From positions 62,001-126,000 of the forward strand of contig JAIETZ010000013.1 of the NCBI GenBank assembly GCA_019744775.1: DNA of 64,000 nucleotides, given 5' to 3'. The stretch comes from Candidatus Obscuribacterales bacterium (GTDB lineage: Bacteria; Cyanobacteriota; Vampirovibrionia; Obscuribacterales; Obscuribacteraceae). Every line of letters starts with the position of its first letter. Within the stretch, counting starts at the first letter, position 1. The notes beneath the pieces were generated by a model. It did no database searches. It was not told where the DNA came from and saw only the letters and a program-made list of their open reading frames with translations. Positions 3,512-6,903 of this stretch are shown piece after piece. Both the position numbers and the translations under genes were made by a program.

Positions 3512-3653
3512 GGGCGCATGCAATGCGCCCCTACAAACACGATGACACATGGTCTTGAATTCGAGGGGCGCAATAGTTTGCGTATCTGTGTGCGACGCTT
3601 GTTTCCGGGCGCACTGGGGCACTAGTCTGCGTAGGGGCGCATTGCATGCGCCC
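3512..3653. repeat. Small element bounded by 23-bp perfect inverted repeats (MITE/REP-like)
   Basis: The left arm (3512-3534, starting GGGCGCATGCAATGCG) and the right arm (3631-3653) are exact reverse complements over 23 bases, with a 96-bp interior. Each arm also holds its own small palindrome (GGGCGCATGCAATGCGCCC, nearly symmetric). The interior contains degraded versions of the same GGGCGCA word (near 3565 and 3607). No coding frame of substance. It lies between the convergent upp and dodecin genes, the usual place for non-autonomous repeats. No target duplication could be recognised with confidence. Confidence 0.75.
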
Positions 3654-3957: not shown

Positions 3958-3985
3958 TTGACAATGGCAAAGTTTCAGGAATAAT
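3958..3985 (+). promoter_or_regulatory. Strong sigma-70 type promoter
   Basis: TTGACA (3958-3963, perfect consensus) and AATAAT (3980-3985, five of six) with a 16-base spacer. Predicted transcription start is near 3992. No gene begins soon after it: the next features are a structured leader and a hairpin-T tract (4118-4150), then the ABC operon at 4308. Confidence 0.65.
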
Positions 3986-3991
3986 GAAGAG

Positions 3992-4150
3992 GCTATGTTG
4001 AAAATGATCACAGTACTCGCCGTCATTTACCCAGCACCTCAAGGTTGCTTGGTCAGAGGCAGTCGTGCATCTATCTTCACGTAAGTGATTTAGTTAACAA
4101 CTAGTAGATAGAAAGCTGCCTCCCATACCAAGAAGGGGGGCATTTTAATT
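3992..4150 (+). ncRNA. Candidate attenuated leader RNA or small RNA
   Basis: Stretch between the promoter at 3958 and the hairpin at 4118. Visible structure: a hairpin around 4030-4055 (AGCACC / GGTTGCT with a small bulge and TCAA loop), then an outer stem GGCAG (about 4058) with CTGCC (4116-4120), enclosing CTATCT with AGATAG. The CTGCC arm overlaps the 5' half of the terminator stem GCCTCCC, so the two folds exclude each other, as in attenuators and riboswitches. A 29-codon frame (3995-4083, MLKMITVLAVIYPAPQGCL...) could be a leader peptide but has a badly spaced ribosome site. I recognise no known riboswitch class. It could control the ABC operon downstream or simply be a stand-alone small RNA. 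Confidence 0.4.
4118..4150 (+). terminator. Hairpin followed by T-rich tract in ABC operon leader
   Basis: GCCTCCC (4118-4124) pairs with GGGGGGC (4135-4141), seven pairs including one G-U, around a 10-base loop, followed by ATTTTAATT. The U-tract is interrupted, so efficiency is uncertain. Confidence 0.5.
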
Positions 4151-4183
4151 AGGAGACTAACTTCAAGTGAGCACCAAGTACAT

Positions 4184-4259
4184 GTCATTCTGAGCGGTAG
4201 CGAAGAATCTCATAGCTTAAGTAGTGAGATCCTTCGTCGCAGATGCTCCTCAGGATGAC
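4184..4259. repeat. Imperfect palindromic REP-like repeat, copy 1
   Basis: The ends read GTCATTCTGAGCG and, reverse-complemented, GTCATCCTGAGGAGCAT; the inner arms carry GCGAAGAATCTCA against ACGAAGGATCTCA. The whole 76 bases can fold into one long hairpin. A second relative lies at 7854-7930 on the other side of the same operon. Confidence 0.65.
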
Positions 4260-4307
4260 AGCAGTTGTTGACTCAATATCTACATTGGGAGAACAGAGGA
4301 CACAAAC

Positions 4308-5300
4308 ATGAACGCCGTTGAGTTGGAAAATTTACGCAAAACCTTCGTCCAAAAACTTGGACGCGGATTCTCGCGGGTAACAAAAGAAATTGTCGCCGTT
4401 GATTCGGTAAGTTTCGAAGTGCCCGTTGGACAATCTGTTGCGTTTATTGGTCCTAACGGCGCCGGTAAATCGACAACCATTAAGATGCTCACCGGTATTT
4501 TGAATCCGACATCAGGCAGTGCTCACGTTTTGGGTGCTGTGCCTTGGAAGGAGAGAAATAAACTCACCTACAATATAGGTGCTGTATTTGGTCAGCGTTC
4601 GCAGCTCTGGTATCACCTGCCAGCCAGGGATACTTTTGAACTGCTGGCAAAAATCTATAGCCTAGATACGGCCGAGTACAAAAAGCGCGTAAGTGTTCTT
4701 ATTGATCGTTTTGCATTGGAATCCTTTTTGGACACCCCAGTGCGTAAACTTTCGCTCGGGCAAAGAATGCGGTGCGAAATCGCTGCCAGCTTGTTACACA
4801 AACCACAAGTGTTGTTTCTTGATGAACCAACCATCGGTTTGGATGTAATAGCCAGACAAGAGCTTCGCGATCTTATAAGTGAATGGAATCGTGAAGAGGG
4901 TTTGACCATCTTCCTAACCAGTCACGATGCCGGAGACATCGAAAGTGTCGCTAAGCGTGTGATTGTTATCAATCACGGGAGAGTTGTGCTTGATGATTCC
5001 GTCAACGCAATGAAACGTCAATATCTTTGTGAAAAGGTAATCGGCGTTAAATTCCACGATGCGCACAAGAGTCTCGATGTGCCTGGCATAAAGATACTCA
5101 AGTCCAACAGTCATGCGCTGAAGCTAGAAGTGGATACTCGTGTAATGCCAATTGAAAAGGCACTGCATGAGGTTATGCAAACTGGCTCTGTTGCGGACAT
5201 CACAATTGAAGATCCGCCATTGGAAGAGATCATCGCTCACATATACAGCCAAGGTCCTGAAGCTGCAGTTGACGAAAAGGAGGTGACCATAAGTGAATAG
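4308..5300 (+). CDS. ABC-2 type exporter, ATP-binding subunit (COG4586-like)
   Basis: A 330-aa cytoplasmic ATPase. Walker A GPNGAGKST at 48-56; Q-loop in FGQRSQLW; signature LSLGQ at 148-152; Walker B VLFLDEP with D172/E173; switch His at 206 (TSHD). The extended N-terminus before Walker A, the FGQRSQLWYHLPA block and the C-terminal 80-residue extension (235-330) are typical of the COG4586 group that works with paired COG4587 and COG3694 membrane subunits, which is exactly what follows. The substrate of this group is not established. An 8-base overlap with the next gene implies translational coupling. Transcription may start at the promoter at 3958 through the structured leader. Confidence 0.9.
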   Translation: MNAVELENLRKTFVQKLGRGFSRVTKEIVAVDSVSFEVPVGQSVAFIGPNGAGKSTTIKMLTGILNPTSGSAHVLGAVPWKERNKLTYNIGAVFGQRSQLWYHLPARDTFELLAKIYSLDTAEYKKRVSVLIDRFALESFLDTPVRKLSLGQRMRCEIAASLLHKPQVLFLDEPTIGLDVIARQELRDLISEWNREEGLTIFLTSHDAGDIESVAKRVIVINHGRVVLDDSVNAMKRQYLCEKVIGVKFHDAHKSLDVPGIKILKSNSHALKLEVDTRVMPIEKALHEVMQTGSVADITIEDPPLEEIIAHIYSQGPEAAVDEKEVTISE

Positions 5301-6090
5301 TTTTAAAAAGTACTTCTGGGTTGGACTCATCTCAGGAAAATCCAATCTTGCTTACTTTGGCGAAACTCTCGGCAGAATATTCTTTCTCGGAATAATTCTG
5401 TTTATCTTCCTTCGCTTATGGCAAGTTACCTATTCGCAGACCAATGCGACTATTCTTGGTGGCTTCACGATAGCTCAGATGCTGTGGTATCTGGTGGTAA
5501 CTGAATCCATCATGTTGTCGACTCCAAGGGTGTCGTATTACGTCGACCAGGCGGTACGGACAGGTGCGATCGCAGTTTATTTGCTGCGGCCGATGTCATA
5601 TCCGATGCACGAATTGTTTGCGTGCTTGGGTGAAAGATTCATCCGGTTTGGTCTCAACCTGGCGGTTGGATCGGTCATTGCGCTAATTTGTGTCGGACCG
5701 ATTCCACTTAATGCTCAGGGACTATTGCTATTTTTATTAGCAATACCCTTCGCGTTTGTGCTCGACTTCATGGGTTATTTCCTGGTTGGTCTGTGCGCAT
5801 TTTGGATGGAAGATACAACCGGACTGGTATTTCTCTACTCGAGAATAACCATGGTACTCGGCGGAATGCTCATTCCAATTGAGTTGTTTCCTGAAACCTG
5901 GCAGCCTATATTGCGTATCTTGCCGTTTTCATCAATTGTCTACGGACCGGCGCGCATGTTTGTCCGACCGGACTTCACTGAATTCGTTCAGTTGATAGTG
6001 CGTCAGGGACTGTCCATCGCTGTCTTTTCACTTGTTGTTTACCTCGTCTGGAACGCATGCCTCAAGCGTGTGTTCGCCAACGGAGGATAA
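5293..6090 (+). CDS. ABC-2 exporter permease subunit (COG4587-like)
   Basis: A 265-aa membrane protein with about six hydrophobic segments (for example FFLGIILFIFLRLW, then regions near 110-140, 145-170, 180-200 and 235-255). Start GTG with a near-perfect ribosome site AAGGAGGTGA placed inside the end of the ATPase gene, overlapping it by 8 bases. The pattern YYVDQAVRTGAIAVYLLRPMSYP resembles the ABC2_membrane_6 family, in which a cytoplasmic loop contacts the ATPase. It pairs with the next gene to form a heterodimeric channel in the inner membrane. Substrate unknown. Confidence 0.87.
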   Translation: MNSFKKYFWVGLISGKSNLAYFGETLGRIFFLGIILFIFLRLWQVTYSQTNATILGGFTIAQMLWYLVVTESIMLSTPRVSYYVDQAVRTGAIAVYLLRPMSYPMHELFACLGERFIRFGLNLAVGSVIALICVGPIPLNAQGLLLFLLAIPFAFVLDFMGYFLVGLCAFWMEDTTGLVFLYSRITMVLGGMLIPIELFPETWQPILRILPFSSIVYGPARMFVRPDFTEFVQLIVRQGLSIAVFSLVVYLVWNACLKRVFANGG

Positions 6091-6096
6091 AGGAAA

Positions 6097-6903
6097 ATGT
6101 TTAAACTAACTTCAAAACTGATCAACTATCTTTCCATGGCATGGTCCTACGTGCGCTTGAATTTCTTTGCGCAAATGGAATACAAGGCCGCTTTCTGGTC
6201 GCAGGTAATTGGAATGATTCTGAACAACTGCGTTTGGATTGTTTTTTGGAGCGTGTTCTTCACGCGATTCGACAATCTCGGTGGTTGGACTGTAAAAGAC
6301 GTCTTGACCGTCTGGTCGATATCGGCTGGCGGCTATGGACTGGCATATAGCATCTGCGGCAATGCGCTTGGACTTGCTTCGTTGATAAGCAATGGTCGAC
6401 TTGATGCGTGGATGTTATATCCACGTGCCTTGTTGTCGCACTTGCTGATCGGCAGAATGAGCGCGACTGCTTTCGGAGACATATTGTTTGCTTTGATTGT
6501 CTATGTCTTCTTTGTGAGACCGGATCTCCCACATTTCTTGTGGTTCTGTGCTCTGACCATCTCCGCTGCAGTCGTCTTTGTTGGCTTTAGCATACTGACC
6601 AGTTGCTTGAGCTTCTTCTTGGGAAATGCAGACGCGTTAGCGGAAAACGGCCGATTTGCTTTGGTCACCTTCAGCACCTACCCGGCTAGTATATTTCAGG
6701 GAGCATTGAAGCTACTCCTGTTTACTGTGATACCGGCCGGATTCGTTAGCTACCTGCCGGTGGAAGCGTTGCGTGAATTGTCAGTCGAGAAAACACTTAT
6801 GTGTTTTGCTGGCAGCTTGTCTGTTCTAGTCGTCGGAGTTGTCGTATTCTATTGGGGACTTCGTCGTTACGAGTCGGGCAATCTCATGGAGATGCGTGGG
6901 TGA
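6097..6903 (+). CDS. ABC-2 exporter permease subunit (COG3694-like)
   Basis: A 268-aa protein with about six membrane segments, starting with a cytoplasmic N-terminus and then WSQVIGMILNNCVWIVFWSV. The motif LASLISNGRLDAWMLYPRALLSHLL mirrors the TGAIAVYLLRPMSYP region of its partner upstream, as expected for two paralogous halves of one transporter. AAAGGA precedes the ATG by a few bases, 6 bases after the previous stop. Its TGA overlaps the GTG of the L,D-transpeptidase gene by four bases, so envelope remodelling and this transporter are probably translated together. Confidence 0.87.
   Translation: MFKLTSKLINYLSMAWSYVRLNFFAQMEYKAAFWSQVIGMILNNCVWIVFWSVFFTRFDNLGGWTVKDVLTVWSISAGGYGLAYSICGNALGLASLISNGRLDAWMLYPRALLSHLLIGRMSATAFGDILFALIVYVFFVRPDLPHFLWFCALTISAAVVFVGFSILTSCLSFFLGNADALAENGRFALVTFSTYPASIFQGALKLLLFTVIPAGFVSYLPVEALRELSVEKTLMCFAGSLSVLVVGVVVFYWGLRRYESGNLMEMRG

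Follow-up and report, generated by a model that had tools for sequence, protein, structure and literature searches.

Leader region of the exporter operon

In an uncultured bacterium that is related to the cyanobacteria and is itself non-photosynthetic, the DNA between the upp gene and an ABC-2 type exporter operon is very probably a ribosome-mediated (leader-peptide) transcription attenuator of that operon. Its architecture is conserved, its pairing is specific to each leader, modelled RNAs switch with the position of the ribosome, and the short open reading frame (ORF) it contains is conserved. The initial annotation had recognized the wiring of an attenuator in front of an ABC-2 operon, an assignment that is now backed by 23 of 37 loci, by arm swaps and by folds with a masking ribosome. 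The region was studied in a window of 64,000 nucleotides, positions 62001-126000 of contig C13 in a genome of 4.1 Mb (G000) of the order Obscuribacterales.

The leader region is preceded by upp and by a dodecin gene in divergent orientation. The exporter operon (4308-6903) on the downstream side encodes one ATPase and two ABC2_membrane_6 permeases (Table 1) and is followed by an LD-transpeptidase-like ORF (weak Pfam match) and, further downstream, by TolC-like and RND-efflux-type ORFs that were named by inspection of their sequence.

The promoter described initially as having no gene close behind it is present, and the next gene starts at 4308. The bulged hairpin and the GGCAG/CTGCC and CTATCT/AGATAG stems were likewise found, GGCAG (4058-4062) and CTGCC (4116-4120) forming the core of a longer stem that joins 4056-4063 to 4115-4122. 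The terminator-like hairpin given as 4118-4141, with a 5' arm overlapping CTGCC, runs more exactly from 4117 to 4142. Its T tract consists of just four T, so that it was missed by a generic scan with a 5-T threshold, which found no terminator in the window and one promoter-like site against 0.8 expected. With a folding z-score of -2.2 for the leader, the case from the window sequence alone is modest; conservation in same-genus genomes and at 23 of the 37 orthologue loci lifts the elements above chance. Given the usual start site, the leader RNA in the window is probably leaderless.

Table 1. Features of the leader region and the exporter operon (positions in the window)
Feature	Position	Strand	Remarks
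Promoter, TTGACA (3958-3963), 16-nt spacer, AATAAT (3980-3985)	3958..3985	+	same hexamers and spacer in both same-genus genomes
Leader ORF, 29 codons and TAA, peptide MLKMITVLAVIYPAPQGCLVRGSRASIFT	3995..4084	+	ATG 9 nt past the -10 box
Hairpin 1:2 within the leader ORF	4019..4060	+	-12.5 kcal/mol; arm-swap test 0/20,000
Strand 2, antiterminator 5' arm GAGGCAGT	4056..4063	+	inside leader codons 21-23
CTATCT (4071-4076)/AGATAG (4106-4111) stem	4071..4111	+	enclosed by the antiterminator; within the genus a C-G pair is replaced by G-C (compensatory)
Strand 3, antiterminator 3' arm GCTGCCTC	4115..4122	+	overlaps the terminator 5' arm
Terminator hairpin 3:4, 4117-4142 (TGCCTCCC/GGGGGGCA), then TTTTAATT including TTTT	4117..4146	+	-13.5 kcal/mol
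Palindromic dispersed repeat between attenuator and ABC gene	about 4175..4260	+	TGTCATTCTGAGC...GCTCCTCAGGATGACA; partial copies are numerous in its genome
ABC exporter ATPase, DrrA-like, regulated gene	4308..5300	+	PF00005; best NCBIfam TIGR01188, under its cut-off
Two ABC2_membrane_6 permeases	5293-6090 and 6097-6903	+	PF06182 over cut-off

The leader proper is a single-copy element of its genome, the dispersed repeat being confined to about 4175-4260, where most of the 41 matches of the region to its own genome fall. This repeat is inserted in two of three same-genus genomes, G048 being the one without it. Because the repeat is inserted there, the terminator hairpin in the window ends as far as 165 nt ahead of the ABC start; the hairpin in G048 ends 30 nt ahead of the ABC ATG. 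Leaders of the exact promoter-ATG type were found in the window genome at this position only. A relaxed promoter-ATG pattern gave nine sites, against three for a reversed-pattern control, and the other eight were discarded for want of a short ORF, a terminator and a gene together. Phage records compared with the leader region gave no match.

Conservation of the leader plan

Promoter, RNA and terminator are kept in two same-genus genomes at 83% and 77% identity. Orthologues of the ABC ATPase occur in 36 of the 53 genomes of the order (E <= 1e-80). When the class was searched at E <= 1e-90, 36 of 240 genomes had the gene, and all of these belong to one family. The 37 loci examined are the orthologue loci plus L033 (G048), where the gene is cut by the contig end. 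At 23 loci, representing 15 genera of this one family, a promoter, an ORF of 23-33 codons with the antiterminator arm, a terminator and the ABC gene follow each other. The promoter spacer is 16 nt in all 23 leaders, and each has an intrinsic terminator ahead of the first structural gene; the automatic terminator search covered 30 of the 37 loci, and the hairpins of L082 and L092 were placed by hand. Promoter and terminator are present and a clear ORF is absent at L104-L106, while 11 loci carry no leader. Nine of the latter are from two genera in which the ABC gene follows another gene. In 10 genomes whose ABC gene lacks a leader or follows another gene, no leader was found further upstream within about 3.5 kb.

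Alternative pairing and ribosome masking

Covariation in homologous upstream regions had been proposed as a check on the initial annotation, and it bears the pairing out. Since RNAalifold retained only three pairs in the loose alignment of 22 leaders, covariation was examined through arm swaps between genera (one leader each, n = 15). The swaps destroy the pairing, with 0 of 20,000 permutations for each of the helices 1:2, 2:3 and 3:4, and within the genus of the window CTATC/GATAG has become GTATC/GATAC. Antiterminator arms co-vary with the terminator arm, as seen in GGAGGC/GCCTCC (L073, L103), GGAAGC/GCTTCC (L098, L100), GGAGC/GCTCC (L099, L101) and GAGGCAG/CTGCCTC (window). In all 23 leaders the sequence that pairs best with the 5' arm of the terminator starts at nt 42-67, within the ORF; its strength was matched by at most 5 of 300 shuffles in 16 of them, and the antiterminators of the other seven fall short.

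In the masking model, the 5' sequence was hidden as it would be by a ribosome and the nascent RNA was folded. Mean antiterminator pairing was 0.78 with the modelled ribosome at codons 8-14 versus 0.30 at codons 18-24, a difference of 0.48, whereas none of 40 shuffle replicates exceeded 0.12; of the 23 leaders, L074 alone does not pass this control. Full RNAs folded to equilibrium had a minimum terminator probability of 0.47 on average, versus at least 0.79 in shuffles. Five leaders (L074, L092, L094, L096 and L097) are terminator-dominated throughout these folds, and kinetics would therefore have to decide in their case. For the window leader, the terminator probability is 0.92 without a ribosome, 0.02-0.03 with a stall at codons 8-9, 0.67-0.91 at codons 10-11, 0.30 at codon 13 and about 0.95 from codon 18 on. 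Sequestration of strand 2 in the absence of a ribosome is clear in L090 (0.01) and L093 (0.04) and absent in L099 (0.91), and the folding model gives poor sequestration in many leaders. Antiterminator and terminator exclude each other, and in the models the ribosome covers or frees the antiterminator; the case is weaker for 7 of the 23 leaders.

Leader ORF and peptide

The 29-codon frame, which had been put forward as a possible leader peptide, belongs to a conserved class of ORFs. A length of 23-33 codons is found in all 23 leaders versus 3.4 expected from dinucleotide shuffles, a count that includes some selection as the ORFs were hand-picked from candidates; by genus the corresponding numbers are 15 of 15 versus 2.2. 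Over 25 codons, frame 0 has no stop in 22 of 23 leaders, compared with 19 of 46 cases for the two alternative frames. The ORF starts 6-9 nt past the -10 box in 17 leaders. The 5' UTR is longer in the other six (L085, L095-L098 and L100), of which L095-L097 have GGAG or AGGA near the start; the start in L085 is uncertain. The peptide sequence is weakly conserved, and none of the 23 ABC leader peptides contains an amino-acid run or a repeated codon. Because length and frame are kept, and because close pairs differ chiefly by amino-acid-changing substitutions (14 vs 2 for L071/L033, 4 vs 2 for L099/L101), these comparisons indicate that selection clearly acts to keep a reading frame as such, whereas selection on the peptide is not clear.

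Serine, methionine and other leaders of the same plan

When a covariance model of 22 leaders (almost purely sequence, with three pairs) was run on the 53 genomes, the 23 ABC leaders, including the 22 used in building it, came up at E <= 1.2e-10, followed by weaker matches. Seven of the nine weaker matches that were read precede other genes and have a promoter, a short ORF and a terminator; the remaining two, L160 and L161, were rejected as not leader-like.

One of the seven (L157) lies ahead of serS (TIGR00414 over cut-off) and encodes the peptide MNKQQHRTNSSSSPK. Among the serS orthologues, 19 of 21 (L175-L195) have a serine-rich ORF upstream, with at least three consecutive Ser in 17, for example MNKAAHRNSSSSSQ; L190 and L192 are doubtful, L193 and L194 have none, and the automatically assigned starts are probably too far upstream in some, such as L175. 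Mostly a promoter is found just ahead and a GCCCGC...GCGAGGC terminator behind. In folding models of 15 serS leaders (no terminator was found for L176, and L177, L190 and L192 were left out) the antiterminator reaches 0.65-0.69 with the ribosome at codons 9-13 versus 0.12 at the stop codon. On sequence and modelled folds, the serS leaders are a predicted seryl-tRNA synthetase attenuator.

Another match (L159) encodes a Met-rich peptide and is followed by genes for a cystathionine gamma-synthase-type protein and an aspartate kinase. Of 66 places that matched the Met gene, 30 were taken as loci; in 23 of these (L196-L218) the orthologue has upstream an ORF with at least three further Met, for example MQNRLNMSMAMSMPSGEGG and MNNRATMMSMTMMSPPREV, together with terminators, and the seven without a Met-rich ORF are among the more distant ones. 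The folding model for the 23 Met leaders gives an antiterminator of 0.60-0.89 with the ribosome at codons 9-13 versus 0.18 at the stop codon.

In both the serS and the Met leaders, codons for the amino acid concerned stand where the ribosome is predicted to stall. Shortage of Ser or Met should raise expression of the serS and Met genes, and by established attenuation logic read-through would then follow a stall at codons 9-13, which fixes the sign. The Ser and Met leaders, found without being sought, are positive controls of the attenuation plan.

The other leaders of this plan (L153, L154-L156 and L158) precede a PLP-decarboxylase-like gene, a gene for a protein with a Thr-rich N-terminus and a proS-like gene, all named from sequence; the leader of the Thr-rich-N-terminus protein, in the g5 genomes, encodes the peptide MFTRHMRRHCCHSVNRQGGMRTRI.

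Proposed mechanism and signal

In the mechanism that we infer, RNA polymerase would initiate a few bases ahead of the leader ATG, giving a probably leaderless RNA from which the ORF would be translated. If no ribosome is present, hairpin 1:2 would tend to hold strand 2 and terminator 3:4 would form, leaving the exporter genes off. Unhindered translation should have the same outcome, the ribosome being on strand 2 as strand 3 emerges, with formation of the terminator. A ribosome halted at about codons 8-14, however, would sit on strand 1 and leave strand 2 free; pairing of strand 2 with strand 3 would then block the terminator and allow read-through into the exporter genes.

The signal would most likely be slowed or arrested translation, caused by compounds that act on the ribosome or by a nascent chain that is itself sensitive. 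Shortage of a single amino acid is less likely because the ABC leaders are devoid of amino-acid runs. The exporter type and the RND-type ORFs, which adjoin the exporter in the window and in G024 (L170) and not in G014 (L171), suggest that the exporter removes toxic compounds, and translation inhibitors may therefore be the likeliest signal. Tentatively, and with appreciable doubt, we consider that the Obscuribacterales could have a family of leaderless attenuators built on one chassis with varied sensors. These would be runs of serine in front of serS, runs of methionine where Met synthesis is controlled and, in the ABC version, a new class of arrest peptide (consensus approximately M-x4-Y-M-x-P-T-x-I) that would halt the ribosome on an inhibitor then exported by the pump.

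It is unlikely that the ABC leaders instead sense starvation through one charged tRNA, with Tyr or Ile as the best candidates, in the manner of the Ser and Met leaders, even though the architecture is equal to theirs and codon usage offers some ground for it. Tyr occupies codon 6 in 16 of the 23 leaders, as TAC every time, and codons 5-15 contain at least one TAC in every leader and TAT in none, a bias that is either a peptide feature or a portion of the 1:2 stem. Codons 9-15 frequently encode Ile, Val, Leu, Ala, Pro or Phe, with Ile at 14 of 112 positions versus 12 of 324 elsewhere (16 leaders). Both the TAC and the Ile signal may stem from RNA pairing constraints, no codon is repeated in any ABC leader as compared with 3-7 Ser or several Met in the sister leaders, and the regulated genes encode an exporter and not enzymes of amino-acid metabolism. 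Macrolide-type arrest motifs with Ile or hydrophobic residues exist, and the composition of codons 9-15 was considered as such a motif; the proposal was rejected since strand 1 is pyrimidine-rich for pairing with strand 2, which favours such codons and confounds the enrichment.

A new riboswitch, proposed in the initial annotation, would select antiterminator or terminator through a metabolite bound to the 5' domain, the ORF being incidental. The exclusive helices with covariation-type support and the TACATG stretch conserved near codon 6 in many leaders would fit such an element, but we regard it as very improbable. No ligand-type core common to all leaders is apparent (just two columns of A3 are invariant), the antiterminator arm lies inside the conserved ORF, whose start and length are kept in all 23 leaders by way of both leaderless starts (17) and longer 5' UTRs (6), and sister elements encode Ser and Met runs. 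That no riboswitch class could be named agrees with an Rfam search at gathering and relaxed scores, which gave no match beyond chance.

The least probable explanation is the free-standing small RNA also raised at the outset, which would have its own promoter and terminator, as found, and leave the ABC operon uncontrolled: the 165-nt distance in the window is in its favour but reflects the inserted repeat, in 10 of 23 leaders a mere 22-34 nt separate the end of the hairpin from the ABC start, where another promoter would not fit, the top 23 model matches all precede the ABC gene (most, however, had built the model), and the 6S-like match of the genome is located elsewhere. With the leader acting as an attenuator, the short terminated RNA would be a by-product.

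Comparison with known systems

The nearest known system, judged by analogy, is the bmrB-bmrCD locus of Bacillus subtilis. Its description (PMC4191407) has a translated short ORF, alternative stem-loops and a terminator upstream of the multidrug ABC transporter genes bmrCD, with read-through of the terminator in response to antibiotics that slow translation. Whereas BmrB, as described there, has 53-54 codons and a terminator inside the ORF, the ORFs studied here have 23-33 codons, the terminator follows the ORF, the start is mostly leaderless, and the exporter is of the ABC-2 type, in another phylum and with predicted induction.

Drug-stalled leader peptides that control an intrinsic terminator before a resistance gene are described for msrDL (PMC10314930) and yxjB (PMC6851288), where the drug and the stall codon are known. 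MsrDL, by that account, is six residues long, and the terminator there is blocked directly by the stalled ribosome; the Obscuribacterales leaders use a separate antiterminator.

With trp-type attenuators the leaders share the 1:2, 2:3, 3:4 wiring and the uncovering of strand 2 by an early stall; the ABC leaders differ in having no amino-acid run, which the serS and Met leaders from this order do have. For mycobacterial Cys leaders, attenuator RNAs that start at or near the leader AUG are reported (Canestrari, 2020); these would resemble the present leaders in their leaderless ORF, in another phylum and with other regulated genes. The same likeness and differences apply to rnTrpL of Sinorhizobium, whose attenuator RNA starts at or near the leader AUG according to PMC7298713. 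PMC12121999 reportedly deals with an antibiotic-sensing uORF.

PMC2965389 reports many candidate ABC-transporter attenuators and states that Proteobacteria and Actinobacteria were at the time the only groups with known leader peptides, to which it added Firmicutes. The listing for Actinobacteria in PMC1262725 comprises Trp, Cys and branched-chain leaders and none for methionine. Our partial coverage of the literature yielded no leader-peptide or attenuator report for Melainabacteria, Obscuribacterales, Obscuribacter or Vampirovibrionia, and no report of leader-peptide attenuation in cyanobacteria or of Ser or Met leader peptides. The kind of mechanism is already known; the ABC-2 exporter version, conserved in one Obscuribacterales family, would on this coverage be new. 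It provides a testable inducible-efflux switch in a group without described leader-peptide control, as far as the literature was searched, and indicates a family-wide regulatory style of mostly leaderless mini-ORFs in which a stalled ribosome would open the terminator. With the Ser and Met versions as a calibration of the mechanism, the ABC version would be a direct assay for the inhibitor met by these uncultured bacteria. The example also illustrates that structured leaders of the attenuator kind can pass for orphan riboswitches.

Other elements

6S RNA (RF00013) was discarded as an identity for the leader, since the only match in the genome is at C9:4236-4442 of G000 (33.4 bits, under the 46.4-bit cut-off). 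This match is itself a probable 6S RNA, and 28 of 50 genomes of the family have comparable, mostly weak matches. Another palindromic repeat, GGGCGCATTGCATGCGCCC, is present at 3512-3530 and 3635-3653 in opposite orientations and flanks a stretch behind upp.
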